From: Verrucomicrobiota bacterium
Lineage (GTDB): Bacteria > Verrucomicrobiota > Kiritimatiellia > CAIQIC01 > JAGNIJ01
DNA length: 64,000 nt
Direction of reading: 5' to 3'
Assembly: GCA_022710725.1 (NCBI GenBank)
Contig: JAKLGK010000002.1
Location: 124,001-188,000, forward strand
Part shown: positions 9,776-63,495 of the stretch, in pieces
Position numbering within the stretch: the first letter of the stretch is position 1
Layout of the letters: every line of letters begins with the position of its first letter
The notes under the pieces: model-generated
Seen by the model: only the letters and a program-made list of their open reading frames with translations
Told to the model about the DNA's origin: nothing
Database searches by the model: none
Program-made: the position numbers and the translations under genes

Positions 9776-9842
9776 CGGGTAGGGCGCTTTCGCCGAAAGC
9801 GCCGTGGAAGAAACGGCAGGCTCGGCGAGCCCGCCCTACCCG
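9776..9842. repeat. 67-bp palindromic element with terminal inverted repeats
   Basis: The element is bounded by CGGGTAGGGCG (9776-9786) and its exact reverse complement CGCCCTACCCG (9832-9842). Inside are consecutive hairpins: GGCGCTTT/AAAGCGCC, CCG/CGG around GTGGAAGAAA, and GGCTC/GAGCC. It sits 11 bp after the gap stop and 28 bp before the pgk start, so it is transcribed within the operon. There is no T-run, so it is not a classical terminator. The architecture (outer inverted repeat enclosing a chain of hairpins) resembles the larger CTAGCCCG elements at 41501 and 63237. Confidence 0.75.
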
Positions 9843-35498: not shown

Positions 35499-36752
35499 CT
35501 ACGGTACGTTCGCCTCCAGGATCGGGTCGGTGAACATGATGTGCCCATAGGTCGGCCCCCAGCCGCCCCCGGCCTGGAGGTCCTGACTGACGGCCACGGT
35601 GTAGAGCAGCGTGTCCGCGTTGCGCTTGCCGGCGACCTGCGCGGTGAGGCTGCGCGTCGTCCGGTGGCGCAGGGCCGTCTGGGTGGTGTCCGTCCATTCC
35701 AACGCGCTTTCCTGCTTCCAGTCCGGGCTGATGATCGCCGTCTTGAGGACCCGCGCGCCGGGCTGGGCGCGCAGGACGAACTGCCCGGCGGACTTCTTCA
35801 ACTCCGCCGCGTCCGCGCCGGCGTAGGCGTCCGGCGCCATCCGGGTCTCGGCGATGCGGGCGGCGCGCAGCCGGGCATCGGCGCGCTTGAGGTTTTCGAT
35901 CCGCCGGTTCATCGCGTTGATCCGCTGGTCGCCGGTCTTCAGCAGGCCGGCGGCGCGGTCCACGATCTCCTGCGCGTTGCCGATCTGGTCGCGCTCGGGG
36001 AACAGGAAGGTCTCCTTCGAGGCCATGTTGACGTCCTGCTCGCGGATGAACTGCTCCAGGCGGCCGATGGCCGCGTCCGCGTCGCGGAGGTCCTGCTCGG
36101 CGTACTGGCGGCAGGAGGATTCAAACTGGACGAGGGCGTTCTCGAGGAGAGCGGCGACCTGTTTCAGGTCGTCCGTGGCCAGGTCGCCGAGGCCGGCCTT
36201 CTTGTATTCCGCCAGCGCGGCCGAGGCCTCGGCATAAATCCCGAGCCGTTTTTGCATTTCCGCCGGGTCCTGCGTGGCGCTGGACACGAGGTACTTGTCC
36301 GGATCGTGGCTGGATTGCCCGAGGCCGATGACGTGCGGGCGCATTCGGGCGAGCCAGGGCTCCGAGGCCTCGCCGGCGGCGGCGGCCTGCTGCCCGGCCG
36401 CCGCCTGCGCCTGCTGCATCGCGTCCGCCCGCCCGCCGGCCGCGGCCTCCAGTTTCGCGATGCGGCCCTGCATGGCGACGATGTCGGGGTGCGAAGGGGA
36501 GTACTGGCCCGCGTACCGCTGCTCGATCTCGGACATCTTCTCGCGGGCTTCCACGGCGGCGGTCTTCGCGGTCTCGATCTTCCATTCCTCGGACGCCACC
36601 GAGTTGGATTCCAGGGCGCGCTCCGCCCGGGCCAGGATGCGGTCCGCCTCCTTCAGCCGGAACGAGACGTTGCTTGGGAGCTTGTCCTGGGCGGAAGCGG
36701 TCATAATCCCGAGGCCTGTCAGAAGGATCGTCCATAGGCGGCTTGAGTGCAT
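35499..36752 (-). CDS. Exported coiled-coil protein of unknown function
   Basis: A 417-residue protein with a signal peptide (MHSSRLWTILLTGLGIMTASA) and an AAGGAG ribosome-binding site close upstream. Residues about 25-310 are strongly helical, rich in Ala, Glu, Lys and Gln, with long coiled-coil stretches (ASEEWKIETAKTAAVEAREK, INAMNRRIENLKRADARLRA). The last roughly 100 residues form a beta-rich domain (GQFVLRAQPGARVLKTAIIS and onward) with no family I recognise. It could be a periplasmic structural or adaptor protein; this is inference from composition only. Confidence 0.7.
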   Translation of the reverse strand: MHSSRLWTILLTGLGIMTASAQDKLPSNVSFRLKEADRILARAERALESNSVASEEWKIETAKTAAVEAREKMSEIEQRYAGQYSPSHPDIVAMQGRIAKLEAAAGGRADAMQQAQAAAGQQAAAAGEASEPWLARMRPHVIGLGQSSHDPDKYLVSSATQDPAEMQKRLGIYAEASAALAEYKKAGLGDLATDDLKQVAALLENALVQFESSCRQYAEQDLRDADAAIGRLEQFIREQDVNMASKETFLFPERDQIGNAQEIVDRAAGLLKTGDQRINAMNRRIENLKRADARLRAARIAETRMAPDAYAGADAAELKKSAGQFVLRAQPGARVLKTAIISPDWKQESALEWTDTTQTALRHRTTRSLTAQVAGKRNADTLLYTVAVSQDLQAGGGWGPTYGHIMFTDPILEANVP

Positions 36753-36772
36753 GGCGTACTCCTTTCTCCCTC

Positions 36773-36800
36773 ACTTTAACCGCGAGAGACGGGTGGGCAA
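36773..36800 (-). promoter_or_regulatory. Predicted promoter of the coiled-coil protein gene
   Basis: Minus-strand TTGCCC (36795-36800), 16 bases, TAAAGT (36773-36778), 21 bp upstream of the ATG at 36752. The -10 hexamer is the same as that predicted at 2985-2990. Confidence 0.3.
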
Positions 36801-36892
36801 GTCCATTCCTTTGCGCGAGCTCGCTTAACCGTTATGGCGTGGCCGGGTACGTTGAAACTGGGGTTCATGGGGCTTTTCCCGCGAAGGAGCTC

Positions 36893-39800
36893 ATGCGCAT
36901 CTTGCCTGTTCTGGCTGCGGCTGGCGGCTTGGTCTGCGTAACGGTCCGGGCCGGCGCGTCCACGCGATACGTAGCGGCATCCGGCAGTCACTCGTCCCCG
37001 TACACCAACTGGGCCACCGCCGCGCACGATATCCAGACGGCCGTGGACGCGGCCTCCGCCGGCGAGACGATCCTCGTCACGAACGGGATCTACGACACGG
37101 GCGGGCGCGCCATGGACAGCGGCATGACCAACCGCGTCGTGATCAACAAGGCCGTGACCGTGATCAGCGTCAACGGGCCGGACTTCACGTTTCTTGTCGG
37201 CCAACCCTGTCCGACCAACGGCGCGAACGGGAGCGGGGCGATCCGCGTGGCCTACTTGAGCGGCGGCGCGGTGCTGGCGGGATTCACGGTGACCAACGGA
37301 TACACCCTCGCCCTGGAAGACAGCGGCAGCGCCAAGACCAGCGGGGGCGGGGTGTACGTTTCCGGGGACGGGATGATCTCCAACTGTGTGCTGACGGGCA
37401 ACGCGGCTTACTACTACGGGGGCGGCGCGGTCGATGCGGCGGTCCATCGCTCCATTCTGGCCGGCAATCGCGCCCGATCGAGCGGCGGCGGGGCTGATGA
37501 GAGCCAGCTCTATAATTGCATCCTTGTTGGCAACACGTCCTACGGGGGCGGCGGCGCGAGTTACAGCCGGTTGTACAACTGCACCGTGATCGGGAACACG
37601 GCCACCAACCGCGGTGGCGGAGTGTCCTACAGTTATTGCTTCAGCAGCATCCTGGCGGATAACGACGCGCCGTCGGGCGCGAATGTGTATTTCTGGTCCT
37701 ACACTAACTGCTGCCTCTACCCCGCGACGACGGTCGGCGGGAACAGCATCACGAACGAACCGGGGTTCGTGGACGGCCCGGACGGCGACTATCGCCTTTC
37801 GGCCACGTCGGCCTGTATCAACGCCGGGCTGGTCATGCCCTGGATGACCGACGCGCGGGATTTCGACCTGAACGCTCGCGTCGTGGGCGCCAGCGTGGAC
37901 ATCGGTGCTTTCGAATACCAGGGCCTCTCCGATCCGCTCTTGGTGGAGATCGTTGCCGCCGATCTCCAGGCGGTTGTCGGATACTCCGTTCCGCTGGCCG
38001 GCCGGATCGTGGGTAACGCGGAGGGTTTTGTGTGGCAGTTCGGCGACGGCCGCGGCGCGACGAACCAGCTGTATGTCACCAATACCTACGCCGCGGTGGG
38101 CCTGTACGAGGTCACGCTGACGGCCTCCAACCTCGCCGGCGCCGTCGTCGCCACGGCGGCCGTGGAAATCGTCAGCGCGGACTACGCCTACTACGTGGCG
38201 ACGAACGGCGACGACGCCGCGGCCGGCACGAACTGGGCGACGGCCAAGGCGACGATCCAGGCGGCGGCCGACGCGGCGGGGCCCGGCTGCACGATCTGGG
38301 TCACCAACGGCGTCTACGACCGGGGCGGGCGCGTTGTCTACGGCAGCTTGACCAACCGCGTCGCGCTCGACAAGCCGCTCTTCCTCCGCAGCGTCAACGG
38401 GCCGGACGTGACGATCATCGCCGGCGCGCCGAACGCCGACGGCGTCCCGGACGGCGCCGCGGCCGTGCGTGGCGTCTACATGGCCAGCAACACCGTCCTC
38501 GACGGGTTCACGGTGACCAATGGCCACACGCTGGCGGAAGGCGACACGACGCGCGAGCGCAGCGGCGGCGGGGTCTACGCGGGCACCACGAACGCCTTCA
38601 TCACCAATTGCGTGATCACCGGCAGCACCGCCGACCGCTACGGGGGCGGGTGCTGCCGGGGCACTCTTTATAACTGCCGGCTGCTGGGCAACGCGGCCAC
38701 GAACATGGGCGGCGGCGCGTATTCCGCGGTCCTGTTTGGTTGCCTGGTGACGGACAACGCCGCGCTGAATGGGGGCGGGCTTGCCAGTTCAGCGGCCCGG
38801 AACGGCGTCGTGCGCGGCAACCGCGCCGCGCAATATGGCGGCGGGCTCTACTCGGCAGCCGGGGCGTCGGAGAGTTGCACGGTCGCCGGCAACAGCGCGG
38901 GCACGAGCGGCGGCGGAGCGTATCGCGGTTCGCTCCTGAATTCCATCGTCTACTATAACGATGCGCCCACCGGCCCCGATTTCTTCGAAGGCGACTTTAC
39001 GAACTGCTGCGTCGCTTCCTGGCCCGCGGGGGCCAACAACATCACCAACCCGCCGGGCATCGTCAGCACGCTGGACCCTCGCCTCATGCCGGGCGCCGCC
39101 GTCATCGGACGGGGCACGAACCAGCCATGGATGGCAGCCGCCGTGGACTGGGACGGCGCGCCGCGGATCACGGGCGCGTCGGTGGACATGGGGGCGTTCG
39201 AATTCGTTTCCGAATCGGAGTGTACTGGCGCGTTGAGCGCGGCGATTTCGTGCGCCTACACGCAGGCTCCCGCCGGGTTCTCGGTGCCGTTCGAGGCGCT
39301 TGTCGCCGGCCGGGTGCAGGGCTACGAGTGGGATTTCGGGGACGGCGCGCGCGCGACCAGCGGGTGCGTGGTCGGCCATGCCTTCGCGGCGGCGGGAGTG
39401 TTCCCGGTCGTGCTGACGGTGTCCAATCTCGCCGGTTCCGTCGCCGCGACGACGGAAGTCGCCATCGTGGAGCCGGACTGCAACCTGTATGTCCGGCCGG
39501 GCGGGGATGATGGCGCGGCGGGAACAAACTGGGTGACCGCCTTCGCAACGATCCAGGCGGCCGTGGACGCCGCGAGCCTCGGCTGCACGATCTGGTTGAC
39601 CAACGGCGTCTACACGAACGGCGGGCGCGCGGTCGAGGCTGGCCTGACCAACCGCGCCGCCGTGGACCGGGTCGTCACCGTCCGCAGCGTCAACGGGCCG
39701 GCCTTCACGGCGATCGCGGGGCAGGGCGGTATCGGCCCCGGGGCGGTGCGCTGTGTCTGGCTGGGCAGCGGGGCGCGGTTGGATGGATTCACGCTGACCA

Positions 39801-41485
39801 ATGGATTCACCCTGGCGACCGGCACGTCGGAGAAGCAGGGGGGCGGAATCTGGGCCGAGGGTTCGCTGGCCGTGGTCACCAATTGCTGGGTCGCCGGCTG
39901 CGGCGCGGCCGGGAGCGGCGGGGGCGGGTACGGCGGCAACTACCAGGCGTGCGTGTTCGATGGCAACACCGCCGCGCGTGGCGGCGGGGTCAGCGCGGCC
40001 GAGTTGGAGGGCTGTACCGTCACCAACAACCGGGCGAGTTATGGCGGCGGGACCGAGTACGGCACGCTGTCGGACTGCCGGATCAGCCGCAACAGCGCGA
40101 CCAACGGCGACGGCGGCGGCGCATACGGCGGCACGCTGACTGGTTGCTTGCTGTCCGGCAACACGGCCGCCAACGCCGGCGGCGGCGCGTACAATGCACA
40201 ATTGTCCGAGTGCACGCTGCTAAGCAACCTGGTCTCCGGCGCGACCGGCGAGGGCGGCGGAGCGTACGGGGGAACGCTCGTGGATTGCGCGCTCGTCCAG
40301 AACTCGGTCACGAACCATCCCTCGTTCGGAGGCGGGGCCTCCGCCGTTGACCTGGTCGGTTGCACCTTGACCAGCAACCGGGCCGATTACGGCGGTGGGG
40401 CGTACGGGGGAAGCCTCTCGAACTGCGCGGCGGGCTGGAACGGCGCGGCTTACGGCGGCGGCGCGTACGATAGCCTCCTGAACGATTCATCGCTGCACCA
40501 TAACGCCGCGTCGAACGGCGCCGGGCTGTATCTCGGGTCCGCGTACGACACCGTATTTTCCAACAACACGGCCGTGGCGGGCGGAGGGGGCGCGTGCGCC
40601 TCTGTTCTGCACAATTGCCGCCTGCTCCACAACGACGCGGGCGAGGGCGGTGGAGCCGCGGGTGGGACGATCTACAACTGCGTCGTACTGAACAACACGG
40701 CCGATTACGGCGGCGGTGTGGCCTCGGCGGAGAGCTACAACTGCACCATCGTCGGCAACGACGCGACCTCGTTCGGCGGCGGCACGTTCTGGGGCACGCC
40801 GCGCAACTGCATCGTCTACTACAACACCGCCTTCGCCTCGGTGAATGCGTACTTCGGCTGGCTGACCAACTGCTGCAGCACCCCGATGCCGGACGGGACG
40901 GACAATTTCATCGCCGCGCCGAGGATGGCGGACTATGCCGCCGGCGACGTCCGGCTCTTGAGCAACTCTCCGTGCATCAACGCGGGGACGAACCAGGACT
41001 GGATGATCGGCTCGCGAGACCCGGACGGGAACCACCGGATCATCCTGAACGTCGTGGACGTCGGCGCATACGAGTACGCCTACCCAGGCGTCGACCACGA
41101 CGGCGACGGCATCGAGACGGCTTACGAAACCGGGACCGGCGTCTACGCCGGGCCGGAGAACACGGGCACGGACCCGCTGTCGGCCGACACGGACGCCGAT
41201 CGGTTGACGGACGGCGACGAGTTGACGGCGGGGAGCGATCCGACAGACGACGCTTCCTTCCTGGGCATGATTCTTCCTTCGGCGCAGGACGCGGCGGGCC
41301 TCATCGTGTCCTGGCAGAGCGCCGAGGGGAAGACTTACCGGCTCGAGCGGTCCAGCAACCTGGTCTGGGGCTTCGATTACCTGGTGCAGACCAACATCCC
41401 GGCGACGCCTGTCGTCAACACGGTTACCGACGCCACCGCGACGGGGACGGGCCCCTACTACTACCGCGCCGGCGTCGAGCCATAG
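36893..41485 (+). CDS. Giant secreted parallel beta-helix protein with PKD domains
   Basis: A 1530-residue exported protein. ATG 36893 follows AAGGAG and begins a signal peptide (MRILPVLAAAGGLVCVTVRA). Three similar modules follow, each opening with YVA-type strand, TNWATAxxxIQxAxDAA and TNGVY, then a glycine-rich beta-helix of units like GGGAYGGTLTGCLLSGNTA, and closing with a NAGTNQxWM and VDxGAxEY motif. PKD domains lie between modules (about 350-428 and 774-860; GFVWQFGDGRGATN, GYEWDFGDGARATS). Residues about 1400-1530 are the calcium-type repeat plus C-terminal beta module shared with other secreted proteins here. Likely a surface adhesin or polysaccharide-acting protein; no catalytic residues are recognised. 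Confidence 0.88.
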   Translation: MRILPVLAAAGGLVCVTVRAGASTRYVAASGSHSSPYTNWATAAHDIQTAVDAASAGETILVTNGIYDTGGRAMDSGMTNRVVINKAVTVISVNGPDFTFLVGQPCPTNGANGSGAIRVAYLSGGAVLAGFTVTNGYTLALEDSGSAKTSGGGVYVSGDGMISNCVLTGNAAYYYGGGAVDAAVHRSILAGNRARSSGGGADESQLYNCILVGNTSYGGGGASYSRLYNCTVIGNTATNRGGGVSYSYCFSSILADNDAPSGANVYFWSYTNCCLYPATTVGGNSITNEPGFVDGPDGDYRLSATSACINAGLVMPWMTDARDFDLNARVVGASVDIGAFEYQGLSDPLLVEIVAADLQAVVGYSVPLAGRIVGNAEGFVWQFGDGRGATNQLYVTNTYAAVGLYEVTLTASNLAGAVVATAAVEIVSADYAYYVATNGDDAAAGTNWATAKATIQAAADAAGPGCTIWVTNGVYDRGGRVVYGSLTNRVALDKPLFLRSVNGPDVTIIAGAPNADGVPDGAAAVRGVYMASNTVLDGFTVTNGHTLAEGDTTRERSGGGVYAGTTNAFITNCVITGSTADRYGGGCCRGTLYNCRLLGNAATNMGGGAYSAVLFGCLVTDNAALNGGGLASSAARNGVVRGNRAAQYGGGLYSAAGASESCTVAGNSAGTSGGGAYRGSLLNSIVYYNDAPTGPDFFEGDFTNCCVASWPAGANNITNPPGIVSTLDPRLMPGAAVIGRGTNQPWMAAAVDWDGAPRITGASVDMGAFEFVSESECTGALSAAISCAYTQAPAGFSVPFEALVAGRVQGYEWDFGDGARATSGCVVGHAFAAAGVFPVVLTVSNLAGSVAATTEVAIVEPDCNLYVRPGGDDGAAGTNWVTAFATIQAAVDAASLGCTIWLTNGVYTNGGRAVEAGLTNRAAVDRVVTVRSVNGPAFTAIAGQGGIGPGAVRCVWLGSGARLDGFTLTNGFTLATGTSEKQGGGIWAEGSLAVVTNCWVAGCGAAGSGGGGYGGNYQACVFDGNTAARGGGVSAAELEGCTVTNNRASYGGGTEYGTLSDCRISRNSATNGDGGGAYGGTLTGCLLSGNTAANAGGGAYNAQLSECTLLSNLVSGATGEGGGAYGGTLVDCALVQNSVTNHPSFGGGASAVDLVGCTLTSNRADYGGGAYGGSLSNCAAGWNGAAYGGGAYDSLLNDSSLHHNAASNGAGLYLGSAYDTVFSNNTAVAGGGGACASVLHNCRLLHNDAGEGGGAAGGTIYNCVVLNNTADYGGGVASAESYNCTIVGNDATSFGGGTFWGTPRNCIVYYNTAFASVNAYFGWLTNCCSTPMPDGTDNFIAAPRMADYAAGDVRLLSNSPCINAGTNQDWMIGSRDPDGNHRIILNVVDVGAYEYAYPGVDHDGDGIETAYETGTGVYAGPENTGTDPLSADTDADRLTDGDELTAGSDPTDDASFLGMILPSAQDAAGLIVSWQSAEGKTYRLERSSNLVWGFDYLVQTNIPATPVVNTVTDATATGTGPYYYRAGVEP

Positions 41486-41500
41486 ATTCCGTTTCGGACT

Positions 41501-41717
41501 CTAGCCCGGATAATGCGCGATTGGCGCGCATTATCCGCCCAAAGGGCCGTGATGTGCCCGCGTTGCGGGCACAAACGGGGCTTGCCACGTTCGTATTGTC
41601 GAATCCTTGATTCGACAATACGTCACGTCTTCTGGCACGCGAATTGCCTATGCAATTCGCGTGCCCAGAAGCGCTTATTGCGTGAGCGTCTCTACGCTCA
41701 TGCAATAAGCGGGCTAG
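41501..41717. repeat. CTAGCCCG-bounded mosaic hairpin element, copy 1
   Basis: 217 bp bounded by CTAGCCCG (41501-41508) and CGGGCTAG (41710-41717). Five hairpins follow one another: a 12-bp stem 41508-41519/41525-41536; an 8-bp stem 41554-41561/41565-41572; a 14-bp stem 41592-41605/41609-41622 with a 3-base loop; a 14-bp stem 41634-41647/41652-41665; and an 18-bp stem with one G-T mismatch 41672-41689/41694-41711. It lies between two convergent genes. The right end provides the TAG stop of selD. A copy at 63237-63495 is identical except for 42 extra bases. Confidence 0.9.
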
Positions 41718-42919
41718 GCAACCCGTATTTGGCCATCCGACGCTTCCGTGATCCGGCCGATGAGCGCCGCCTGCGCCAGCCCGGCGGCGCGCATTTCGGC
41801 GAGCGCCGCTTCCGCGCGGTCCGCGGGCAGGGCGATCAGCAGGCCGCCGGAGGTCTGGGCGTCGAACAGCAGGGCTCGAAGCGGGGCCGGCACGCCGGAC
41901 TCGATGTCGGTGATGTCCGCACTGTATTCCGCGTTGCGCTCGTTGGCGCCGGAGAAAACGCCGGCGGCGGCGAGGCCGAGGACGTCCGGGAGCAGGGGCA
42001 GGGCATCGGCCCGGATCTCCGCGGTCACGCCGCTCTCCCGCACCACGCGCGCGAGGTGGCCGAGCAGGCCGAACCCGGTGACGTCCGTGCAGGCGTGGGC
42101 GCCGTGGCGGACCATGATCTCGGCGGCGGACTTGTTCAGCGTGGTCATGCTGGCTGCCGCGGCGGCGCGCGCGGCGTCTGAGGCCCGGCCGAGCTGCGTG
42201 GCGAGGGTGATGATCCCCGTGCCCAGCGGCTTGGTCAGGATCAGCGCGTCACCCGGCCGCGCCCCGCTGTTGGCGGCCAGTTGCTCCCGTTTCACCAGTC
42301 CCGTCACGGCGAACCCGGCCTTGACCTCCTCGTCGTCCAGGCTATGCCCCCCCAGCAGTGTCGCGCCGGCCTCCTGCAAAACGCTCATGCCGCCGCGCAG
42401 AATTTCCGAGAGCGCCGTGCCGGGCAGGACGTGGATGGGAAATCCGACAATCGACAGCGCCGTCAGCGGCCGTCCGCCCATGGCATACACGTCGCTCAAG
42501 GAGTTACAGGCCGCGATCCGGCCGAACGTGAAGGGATCGTCCACGACGGGCGTGAAGACGTCCACGGTCTGCACGAGCAGCAGGTCCGGCGTCAGTTCAT
42601 AGACCCCCGCGTCGTCGCCCGTGGAAAGCCCGACCAGCACGCGCGGATCATCGATTTTCGGCAGGCGGGAGAGGACGGCGTGTAGATCCTTCTGGCTGAT
42701 CTTGCCCGAGCAGCCGGCGCTCCGGACGTGCTCGGTCAGGCGCGCCGCCGGCGCCGCCGGGTCGGCCGGCACATGCTCGCCCGCGCACAGGCAGGTGTCC
42801 TTCTCCTTGAACGTCGGGCAGGGGCAGGGCAGCTTCGGGTTGCAGACGCAGTGCCCCAGCTTGATCGAGCGGCCCATCACCTGCCGCCGCTTCTCCGCAT
42901 TGATATCGCTTCGAGTCAT
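41714..42919 (-). CDS. selD: Selenide, water dikinase (selenophosphate synthetase)
   Basis: A 401-residue enzyme that makes selenophosphate, the selenium donor for selenocysteine. The catalytic region is SAGCSGKISQKDL with C70 and K73; the second cysteine of the usual GCGCK motif is replaced. The AIRS-type core follows: LSTGDDAGVYEL, DVFTPVVDDPFTFGRIAACN, LLGGHSLDDEEVKAG and CTDVTGFGLLGHLA. An unusual N-terminal extension (about residues 15-48, GHCVCNPKLPCPCP and TCLCAGE) holds six cysteines. ATG at residue 15 (MGRSIKL) is an alternative start. The stop TAG is supplied by the adjacent repeat element. selB and selA follow upstream on the same strand. Confidence 0.95.
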   Translation of the reverse strand: MTRSDINAEKRRQVMGRSIKLGHCVCNPKLPCPCPTFKEKDTCLCAGEHVPADPAAPAARLTEHVRSAGCSGKISQKDLHAVLSRLPKIDDPRVLVGLSTGDDAGVYELTPDLLLVQTVDVFTPVVDDPFTFGRIAACNSLSDVYAMGGRPLTALSIVGFPIHVLPGTALSEILRGGMSVLQEAGATLLGGHSLDDEEVKAGFAVTGLVKREQLAANSGARPGDALILTKPLGTGIITLATQLGRASDAARAAAAASMTTLNKSAAEIMVRHGAHACTDVTGFGLLGHLARVVRESGVTAEIRADALPLLPDVLGLAAAGVFSGANERNAEYSADITDIESGVPAPLRALLFDAQTSGGLLIALPADRAEAALAEMRAAGLAQAALIGRITEASDGQIRVA

Positions 42920-42947
42920 TGTGCGCCAACGAAGACGGACGGAATTA

Positions 42948-43030
42948 AACCACAGAGGTCGCGGAGGGCACAGGGGAATGATGAGCAGCGTTGATTCTCC
43001 TCCGTGACCCTCTGTGTCCTCCGTGGTTCA
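42948..43030. repeat. Imperfect inverted repeat of 9-10 bp-period sequence between selB and selD
   Basis: The left arm AACCACAGAGGTCGCGGAGG begins at 42948. The right arm, read on the minus strand from 43027, begins AACCACGGAGGACACAGAGG. The arms are about three-quarters identical and face each other around a 15-20 bp centre. The selB stop TGA (43028-43030 on the minus strand) directly precedes AACCACGG. Confidence 0.7.
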
Positions 43031-44935
43031 ACCGGGCTTCCGGGCCAGGATGCGCTCGTCGCCGATCCGGCGCGTCAGGCCCTTGCGGTCCCACCATTCC
43101 AGGATCGCGATGGCGTACTTCTTCGACGTGCCGAGCACTTCCTTGAACTTCACCGCGTCCACGCGGTCGTTCCGCGACAGGTAGTCGATCAGCTTCACAC
43201 GCGACGCTTCCAGGTGCTCCGGGTGCAGGATGACCTTCTCCGACAGCCGGACCAGCTCCCCCGCCTGGAGCAGCGGCTTGAGCGCGGCCTCCGCGCGGGC
43301 GAGGGGCCAGCCGAGACGCGCTGGCAGTTCGTCGGGCCGCGGCGACTGGAACCCGGTCTCCCGGTACACCGCCAGGAGGGCCGCCCCCGATTCGTCCACG
43401 ACAGACCGACCGGCCTCGCCGACCAGCTCGCCGCGGATCCGGATGCGGCCGGCCTCGCACAGCGACTTGAGCGCCTGCTCGACGAGTTCCGGCTCCGCGG
43501 TCAGGCCTCGCCGCAGGTCCGCCCGGGTGAAGCCCGGCTCTTTCGGCTGCGCCTCGTGCAGCCGTTTCAGCGCGGCGGCCAGGTCCTCGGCCAGTTGCCG
43601 GAGCGAGTCGGCGGAGGCGTAGCGGTCGCCGAGGCGGACCGCGTCGCCGGCCTGGACCAGCCGGTCCAGTTCCGTCCGCGCCGCGTCCCCGGCGACGAGC
43701 GCACGATGCGCGGCCTCCTCCGCTTTCAGGGCCGCCGGCCCGGCGGCGCGGAGGGCGTGGAGCAGGGCGGCGGAAGGATCATGGAGCGCCTGTTCCTCCT
43801 CCTCGCGGGTGCCGACCCAATCGCCGCGCGATCGGCGCATCTTCTGCTCGTCTGTCCCGACGAGGTGCCCGCCGCCCAGCGTCCGTGCCGGGCTCAAGGC
43901 GCGCGCGACGTACGGATCGCCCGGTGCGGCGATCACCGGCTCGGCGAGCTGGACCTGGACAAAGCACTCCCCGCCCGGCGGCAACGGGTCGAGCGTGGGG
44001 AGGACGAGGTATCCGGGCGCATCGGAGGTGCCCACGTGGAATCGGATGGCCGTGCGCGGCTTCAGGGCGGATCCCGCGTCGGGCAGGTGGAGGAACTTCG
44101 CGTTGAAGAAGCGGGTCGGCTGGAAGTAGCCGGGTGTCGCCAGGACGCGGCCCCGGCCCGCCTCCTCGCGGTCCAGGTCGGAAAGACGCAGCGCGACGCA
44201 CTCGCCCGCGAAGGCCTCCTCGGCGTCCGCGCCGTACACCTGCAGGGCGCGGACTTTCTTCCGGCGGCCGGCGGGCAGGAGTTCCAGCTCATCGCCGATG
44301 CGCACGCCGCCGGACCGGGGAATCCCGGAGACGATCACGCCGAGGCCCTTCAGCACGAAGGAGCGCTCGATGTTCATACGGAAGGGCCCGTCCGCCCGGT
44401 GTTCGACCGTGGCGGCGACGACCTCCGCGAAGGCGTCGTAGAAGGCGTCGAACCCGGCGCCGGTCTTCGAAGATACGGGGCGCATCGGCGCGTTTTCCAG
44501 GAAGCTGCCCGCGGCCAGGGCGCGGACCTGTGCCTCGACCTCGGCCACGCGCGCGGGCTCCACGAGGTCGGACTTGGTGATCGCCACGAGGCCGCGCCGG
44601 ATCCCGAGGAGCCGTACGATGTGAAAGTGCTCGACGGTCTGCGGCATAACGCCGTCATCCGCCGCCACCACGAGAAGCACGACATCAATACCCGTCGCCC
44701 CCGCGACCATGTTATGGATGAACCGCTCGTGGCCCGGGACGTCCACGATCCCGACGCGCCGCCCGTCCGGCATGGCGCAGGTCGCGAAGCCGAGGTCGAT
44801 GGTCATGCCGCGCGCCTTTTCCTCGGGCAGGCGGTCCGTGTCGCAGCCGGTCAGGAGCTTGACGAGGGCGGTCTTGCCGTGGTCGATATGCCCGGCGGTG
44901 CCGATGGTGACGTGGATGACAGGGGGGTGGCTCAC
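43028..44935 (-). CDS. selB: Selenocysteine-specific translation elongation factor SelB
   Basis: A 635-residue GTPase delivering selenocysteyl-tRNA to UGA codons marked by SECIS elements. The start is GTG 44935, overlapping the selA stop as GTGA. The G domain has G1 GHIDHGKT (residues 15-22), DVPGHERF (65-72) and TKSD (120-123). Beta-barrel domains follow, then C-terminal winged-helix repeats (about 400-635, for example [20 protein letters not shown] and [18 protein letters not shown]) that bind the SECIS. No selC tRNA was recognised in the window. It is followed by the inverted repeat and selD. Confidence 0.96.
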
Positions 44936-46326
44936 GGGGCGAGACGCTCGATGGCGCGCAGGACGTCCTCGGTTTCCCCCGGCAGGATGGTGCGGACGTC
45001 CAGCAGCACGAGGTCGTCCCGGATGCGGCCGATCACCGGCGGGTCGGCGCGGCGCAAGGCGAGGGCCAATCGATCGGCGGACAACCCTTCGGCCCGGAGC
45101 GACACGGCGAAGGTGGGCAGGGGGGAGGTCGGCAGCGCGCCGCCGCCGAGCTTGGATTCCTCTTCGACCACGGTCGCCTGCCAAGCCGGCTGCCGCTTCG
45201 CGATGCCGGCGCGCAATTCTTCCGCGGTCCGCCGGAGTTCGTCCGGCTTGCGCGCGAGCATGAAATAGGTGGGGTGCCGCGCCTCGAGCTTGTCCGGCTC
45301 CAGGAACAGGCGCAGGGCGTGTTCCAAGGCGGCGAGGCGGAGCTTGTCCACGCGGAACGCCCGGTAGAGCGGGTGCTTGCGCACGGCGGTGACGAGGTCG
45401 GTCCGCCCGACGACGGCGCCGCCCTGCGGGCCGCCGATGAGCTTGTCCGTGCTGAACAGCACGAGGTCCGCGCCGTCGCGGAAGCCGTCCTGCACCGTCG
45501 GCTCGCCCTCGAGGCCGTACTTCCGGAGGTCGACGAGGTTGCCGCTGCCAAGGTCGAAGATCACAGGCACGCTTCGCGTCCGCCCGAGGGCCGCGATCTC
45601 GCGCAGGGCCGTCTCGGCGACGAAGCCCTCCACGCGGTAGTTGCTGGGATGCACTTTCAGCAGCAGGCCGGTGCCCGGGCCGATCGCCTTTTCGTAGTCG
45701 CGGAGATGGGTCTTGTTCGTCGTGCCGACCTCGCGCAGGAGCGCGCCGCTCTCGGCCATGATGTCGGGGAGGCGGAACGAGCCGCCGATCTCAATCAGCT
45801 CCCCGCGCGAGACGACGGCCTCGCGGCCGCGCGAGAGCGCGGCCAGGACCAGGAGGGTCGCGGCGGCGTTATTGTTGACCACGGCGGCGTCCTCCGCGCC
45901 GGTGACGCGCCGGAAAAGGTCGAGCACCACGGCCTCGCGCCGCGTGCGCTCGCCGGTTTCCAGGTCCATCTGCACGTTGCAGTTGCCGACGGCCTCGGCG
46001 AGGGCGGCGAGCGTGTCGCCGGGCAGCACGGCGCGGCCCAGCCCGGTGTGCAGGACGATGCCGGTGGCGTTGACGACGCGCCGGAGATTCGGCCGGTCCG
46101 CCGCCAGCAATTCGGCCGCGGCCTCCGCCAGGCTTTCCGCATCGGGGCGAGCGGCCTCGCCGCCCCGGATCGCCTGCCGCCGCGACTCCACGGCGGCGCG
46201 CACGGCGCCGGAGACCCGGGCGCGGCCGTGCTGCTCCGCCAAGGCGCGCGCACGGGCCGTGTTCAGCACGGCGTCCACGGAGGGCAGGGCGCGAAGGGGC
46301 GAAGCGTCGCCGGCATCCTTGTTCAT
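44932..46326 (-). CDS. selA: L-seryl-tRNA(Sec) selenium transferase
   Basis: A 464-residue PLP enzyme converting seryl-tRNA(Sec) to selenocysteyl-tRNA(Sec) with selenophosphate. The PLP lysine is K295 in [13 protein letters not shown]. Other hallmarks are [62 protein letters not shown] and [19 protein letters not shown] 46326 gives the usual length; an upstream frame to 46395 adds non-family residues. It is the first gene of selA-selB-selD, transcribed leftwards, with selA/selB overlapping by 4 bases. Confidence 0.97.
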
Positions 46327-46427
46327 GGCGCCAAGCTGCCAAAAGCGCCGCCGGGAGGGCAACCTAATTCCGGCTTCGTTTTCGCGGCGGGGCATGGCAG
46401 GATGCCGCGCGGGACCGGGAGGATGGG

Positions 46428-63236: not shown

Positions 63237-63495
63237 CTAGCCCGGATAATGCGCGATTGGCGCGCATTATCCGCCCAAAGGGCCGCCACGTGAGCCGCGT
63301 AGGCCGCGGCAACGTGGCCGCACGCGGTGATGTGCCCGCGTTGCGGGCACAAACGGGGCTTGCCACGTTCGTATTGTCGAATCCTTGATTCGACAATACG
63401 TCACGTCTTCTGGCACGCGAATTGCCTATGCAATTCGCGTGCCCAGAAGCGCTTATTGCGTGAGCGTCTCTACGCTCATGCAATAAGCGGGCTAG
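63237..63495. repeat. CTAGCCCG-bounded mosaic hairpin element, copy 2
   Basis: 259 bp bounded by CTAGCCCG (63237-63244) and CGGGCTAG (63488-63495). By eye it is identical, base for base, to the element at 41501-41717 except for 42 extra bases at 63286-63327. Those contain one more hairpin (CCACGTGAGCCGCG at 63286-63299 against CGCGGCAACGTGG at 63305-63317). The element fills most of the 313-bp gene-free stretch upstream of the btuF-like gene. Its right end supplies the TAG stop of the secreted-protein gene at the window edge. Orientation is the same as in copy 1. Confidence 0.9.

Follow-up and report, generated by a model that had tools for sequence, protein, structure and literature searches.

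What is the array of hairpins that lies between two convergent genes at positions 41501 to 41717 of the window (the whole stretch of 64,000 nucleotides analysed here)? The sequence-only reading described terminal inverted repeats, CTAGCCCG and CGGGCTAG, around five large hairpins, and we found both at these positions and, as that reading had also held, no credible gene within them (open reading frame check). The array itself thus stood, whereas the outer CTAG, which had been taken as part of the element, did not: it is a target-site duplication, so that the element proper comprises positions 41505 to 41713 (209 bp). Sequence comparison indicates that the 217-bp feature is very probably a non-autonomous MITE of the IS1380 type. 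The features of the locus, and those of a second copy in the window, are as follows.

36743 to 41485, plus strand: neighbouring convergent gene for a PKD-domain surface-type protein (open reading frame list, Pfam)
41501 to 41717, plus strand: short (217 bp) copy of the mosaic hairpin element with both 4-bp duplications (copy comparison, folding)
41501 to 41504, no strand: left target-site duplication CTAG (flank comparison over insertions)
41505 to 41520, plus strand: left terminal inverted repeat CCCGGATAATGCGCGA, outer arm of hairpin 1 (comparison with IS1380 ends)
41507 to 41537, plus strand: hairpin H1, 13-bp stem and 5-nt loop, made of the terminal repeat and its own inverted copy (inverted-repeat call, covariation)
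41537 to 41547, plus strand: small sixth hairpin H2, GCCC-AAA-GGGC (folding, copy comparison)
41548 to 41577, plus strand: core module CGTGA-H3-AACG in plus orientation, with hairpin H3 (9-bp stem) at 41553 to 41573 (copy comparison, covariation, module search)
41588 to 41627, minus strand: core module CGTGA-H5-AACG in inverted orientation, with hairpin H5 (14-bp stem) at 41592 to 41622 (copy comparison, covariation, module search)
41634 to 41665, plus strand: hairpin H6, 14-bp perfect stem with a bulged stem extending outwards (inverted-repeat call)
41672 to 41711, plus strand: hairpin H7, stem of 17/18 bp, made of the terminal repeat and its own inverted copy (inverted-repeat call)
41698 to 41713, minus strand: right terminal inverted repeat CCCGCTTATTGCATGA, outer arm of hairpin 7 (comparison with IS1380 ends)
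41714 to 41717, no strand: right target-site duplication CTAG, which provides the TAG stop of the minus-strand selD-like gene (flank comparison)
41714 to 42919, minus strand: neighbouring selD-like gene with AIRS domains, its stop in the right duplication (open reading frame list, Pfam)
63237 to 63495, plus strand: long (259 bp) copy with CTAG duplications, equal to the short copy save for a 42-nt module
63286 to 63327, plus strand: the 42-nt module that the short copy lacks, holding a third CGTGA-stem-AACG unit

The five large hairpins have loops of 3 to 5 nt, and the DNA fold of the array has an energy of -98 kcal/mol, compared with -38.5 ± 3.3 kcal/mol for dinucleotide shuffles (z = -18; 0 of 200 shuffles). 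The covariance model of the family also matches the minus strand (window positions 41586 to 41713, L019, and L152), suggesting that the whole element is roughly dyad-symmetric. At the right duplication, the element adjoins a minus-strand run of selD-, selB-, and selA-like genes (41714 to 46395), the last two of which were judged by eye.

Copies, duplicated target sites, and gene ends

The proposal that the array is a non-autonomous mobile element had been coupled to a count of its copies. In the source genome (3.89 Mb, 14 contigs), we identified at least 12 copies and one fragment, a lower bound obtained from the best 12 candidates scored, so that there are more than the two copies of the window. 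The copies at C7:165501 (the window copy), C2:66500, and C13:6098 lie at unrelated loci and are identical or one base apart, the flanking tetranucleotide aside. The copy at C1:440923 has the same architecture, and nearly all of its stems are different.

Relatives of the element were found in 19 of 288 genomes, distributed patchily over the Kiritimatiellae-type class. A sister subfamily (G045, G003, G001, and Kiritimatiellae STD1_38) has the same ends and a core of TTCGAC-stem-GCTCAGG units. At its loci L035 and L041 (G045), L036 (G003), L037 (G001), and L106, TTCGAC-stem-GCTCAGG/GTTAACC units occur in inverted orientation. There are also minimal palindromes, L168 in G002:C177 and L053 in G045:C447, in which nothing but the two terminal repeats is present, one directly against the other; their flanking duplications are TTAA and CCAG. 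No match was obtained when viral contigs were scanned for the end pattern or when phage and plasmid collections were searched with the element DNA. Matches to the end pattern in genome contigs of Franconibacter, Halomonas, and Desulfatiglandales had no second end and look like chance.

The tetranucleotides flanking the element are 4-bp target-site duplications with a YTAR-like preference. The limits of the element were set by its terminal repeats, with the flanks unused, and the tetranucleotides were taken just outside CCC...GGG; some further copies were read by eye. In 24 of 29 insertions the two flanking tetranucleotides were the same (CTAG, CTAA, TTAG, TTAA, CTGG, CCAG, or ATAG) and in 4 they were one base off, whereas the next four bases outwards agreed in none of the 29; such agreement was seen in 0 of 100,000 permutations. 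Where neither side was CTAG, 13 of 15 tetranucleotide pairs were still identical (CTGG, CCAG, CTAA, TTAG, TTAA, and ATAG). This does away with the suggestion that CTAG is a conserved foot of the hairpins. An unoccupied site had also been suggested as a sign of mobility, and the orthologous surface-protein/selD locus in G001, a genome of the same genus, is without the element, its spacer being too diverged for a base-exact empty site.

The position of the window copy between convergent genes led to the idea of a bidirectional terminator, which we now regard as very improbable: the longest T run in the element is 2, no terminator-like site was found in it, the copies are scattered, and the same-genus locus in G001 does without it. 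A simpler reason for the location is provided by the target. CTAG is ~25 times rarer than base composition predicts (~187 sites would be expected in the window alone). We counted 38 CTAG sites in 304 kb sampled of the source genome, 18 of which end frames of at least 150 codons. The element copies lie at the stop of such a frame in 8 of 12 cases, compared with 18 of 38 for other CTAG sites, a difference short of significance (p = 0.20). The preference for CTAG thus suffices, and no special targeting of gene ends needs to be assumed; copies sit at stop codons because their rare target is a stop codon at about half of its sites. For the long copy, the right CTAG serves as the stop of a gene on the minus strand with 663 codons or more.

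IS1380 transposases with matching ends

Complete insertion sequences (ISs) of the IS1380 family with like ends and duplications were found in the same genus and class, which makes an IS1380-type MITE the best reading of the element. In G001, a 454-amino-acid transposase (NF033539 IS1380, E value of 1.7e-89; PF13701) is flanked by CTAG-CCCGGATTATTCATGA on one side and the mirror image of this sequence on the other, and the right end of the copy at C1:440923 in the source genome is almost identical to the end of this IS. In G091, a 437-amino-acid IS1380-family transposase (IS L195) is enclosed in the same way by CTAG-CCCGGATATTGCATGA and its mirror image, and the same genome contains a 212-bp non-autonomous copy (L224) with CTAG duplications and the ends CCCGCATATTGCACGA and CCCGGATATTGCACGA; one genome thus has both an autonomous IS1380 and a non-autonomous copy with matching ends and duplication. 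Three further IS1380 elements of the class have the ends and duplications CTAG-CCCGAATATTTCATCC (G053), TTAA-CCTGAATATTTCATAA (G141), and CTAA-CCTGAATAATTCATCA (G023). None of the complete IS ends is identical in every letter to those of the window copy.

The element therefore combines the characters of a MITE: 209 bp without a gene, multiple copies at unrelated loci, a duplication, and ends shared with an autonomous transposon, which resides in other genomes. Its mobility and its link to IS1380-type ends are well supported, and the proposal of a non-autonomous mobile element has been upheld by the near-identical copies, the duplications, the orthologous locus without the element, and the IS1380 with matching ends. 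The best candidate for the mover in trans, as far as ends and duplications can tell, is an IS1380 transposase. No IS1380 or PF13701 gene was found in the source genome (94.8% complete, 14 contigs); the donor may have been lost, or may be missing from the assembly since multicopy ISs drop out. IS1380 was present in 9 of the 19 element-bearing genomes and in 59 of the 269 others (p = 0.017, ignoring kinship), a modest association that is partly phylogenetic, IS1380 being common in element-free genomes also.

Two other transposase families were rejected. The 4-bp duplication had at first suggested IS701 (NF033540), but the source genome has no member of this family, and its loci gave no fitting ends. 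DDE_Tnp_1 (PF01609) is likewise absent from the source genome, and one G001 locus assigned to it proved to be the IS1380 element described above. On contig C1 of G037, a first look gave 224 IS1380 candidates, and the five copies scored all contain in-frame stop codons, as if a large IS1380 burst had decayed. The IS1380 family (NF033539/PF13701) serves as the prokaryotic outgroup of piggyBac (PMC10813416), and a 5-bp duplication has been reported for a described member, IS1247 (PMC3281130).

The other type of mobility to be considered is that of a BIME/REP-type element, moved by a RAYT, a Y1 tyrosine transposase for which single-stranded hairpins are the substrate and the tetranucleotide at their foot is the cleavage site. 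The body does consist of hairpins in inverted pairs, like BIMEs, and the source genome has Y1_Tnp genes. However, the direct 4-bp duplications vary together on both sides, and we know of no duplication of the target site by RAYT/IS200-type insertion. A RAYT with matching termini, which the sequence-only reading had proposed to look for, did not appear: the CCCGGATAATGCGCG-type ends were not matched at any of the 30 Y1_Tnp loci retrieved, and the one source-genome RAYT with flanks read (G000:C4, L135) has another repeat on its two sides, the GTAGGGCG repeat of the type GGTAGGGCG...CGCCCTACC. CGTGA-stem-AACG units, moreover, were absent outside elements in the 304 kb searched. A RAYT-moved element is accordingly very unlikely. 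The GGTAGGGCG...CGCCCTACC type of hairpin repeat, unrelated to the element, is also found at window positions 9776 to 9842 and in many copies in G001; the RAYT gene that it flanks in L135 (G000:C4:24871-27990, positions 1333 to 1779) is a typical one of 148 amino acids.

For the IS1380-type MITE, the following course of events can be proposed. The outer ends (CCCG and some 12 nt more, each forming a hairpin with its own inverted copy) would be the terminal inverted repeats for an IS1380-family DDE transposase acting in trans. The transposase would mobilise the 209-bp unit and insert it at a short YTAR-like target, mostly CTAG, which would be duplicated on both sides. With CTAG rare and about half of its sites at stops of gene-length frames, copies would often come to lie at gene ends, where the duplication would preserve the stop. 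The hairpin modules of the mosaic body, which lie in inverted pairs (CGTGA-stem-AACG, or TTCGAC-stem-GCTCAGG in the sister subfamily), would be gained or lost as units.

The hairpin body and its comparison with known elements

A plain MITE needs its ends alone, and the MITE account by itself therefore does not explain why the body is conserved. Across members from many families, 38 of 46 stem pairs were altered on both sides. Covarying cells numbered 178, compared with 50 ± 5 when the 3' letters were shuffled and 18 to 34 with slid partners; the alignment was fitted to the model and so leans towards structure. Replacement of stems is also visible by eye in copies outside the model, L152 and L154 among them. 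The linkers between the changing stems are fixed (for example CCGTGAT, AAACGGGGCTTGCCACGTTCG, and TCACGT) and can be read as the module CGTGA-stem-AACG in plus and minus orientations, the 42-nt module of the long copy being the third. In the 304 kb of source genome searched, these units were found solely inside elements.

Strong covariation, fixed linkers, and members from many families of the class are also what a structured noncoding RNA with a cellular function, carried by transposition, could display. The remaining evidence points the other way. The window gave 0 Rfam matches above the gathering score (sub-threshold ones only), the insertion sites differ, no promoter-like site was found in the element, and one-sided stem changes are few beside double changes. 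Among stem mismatches, G-T (21) showed no excess over A-C (37), which gives no indication of an RNA from the modelled strand. We consider a cellular RNA unlikely to a high degree.

For the body of the IS1380-type MITE, pairing could be kept through selection on a folded DNA strand, through an RNA of the other strand, or through template-switch correction of palindromes. Such correction would not hold the linkers in place, and their fixity argues for something more than correction alone. We infer that pairing in the body persists either because the body works as a folded strand, DNA being more probable than RNA, or through palindrome-correcting replication errors. A further step is tentative, and we would put it at somewhat below even chances: the body may have a function as a folded nucleic acid, probably a single DNA strand or a DNA cruciform with inverted CGTGA-stem-AACG modules, and may act in transposition, copy control, or the survival of the element in its host, in which case these would be MITEs selected for their shape and more than shortened ISs.

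Among known systems, REP/BIME sequences are arrays of palindromes in inverted pairs, as is the element, which differs from those moved by RAYT in having target-site duplications and DDE-type ends; the RAYT repeat of this genome also differs in sequence. In the mobile double-hairpin elements of fungal mitochondrial DNA, the stems change and pairing is kept, as seen here, but we know of none with terminal repeats and target-site duplications of a known transposase family. The IS1380 ISs of G001, G091, G053, G141, and G023 share with the element terminal repeats of the CCCGNNTATTNCATGA type and 4-bp CTAG/CTAA/TTAA duplications, whereas the element has no transposase gene, its ends are doubled into hairpins, and hairpins make up its body. 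We noticed no MITE derived from IS1380 in the literature searched. Bacterial MITEs, which include Correia elements and TIMEs (PMC4133298), are likewise short, gene-less, and multicopy; they duplicate the target site and have the same terminal inverted repeats as an autonomous transposon. In contrast to these, the element has stems that covary throughout the family while its linkers are conserved, and its hairpin modules are exchanged whole. Stems that are rewritten from copy to copy while hairpins and linkers stay are unusual for a miniature transposon.

Miniature transposons are usually viewed as passive leftovers whose insides are unimportant. Here, the inside is kept folded across many bacterial families while its stems are replaced, which raises the questions of why a mobile element devoid of genes should require a shape, and of whether the fold is maintained by selection or by replication that corrects palindromes. 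The comparison also connects a repeat family found across the class with a family of transposases and accounts for its position at gene ends simply by a rare target, CTAG, that is often a stop codon.
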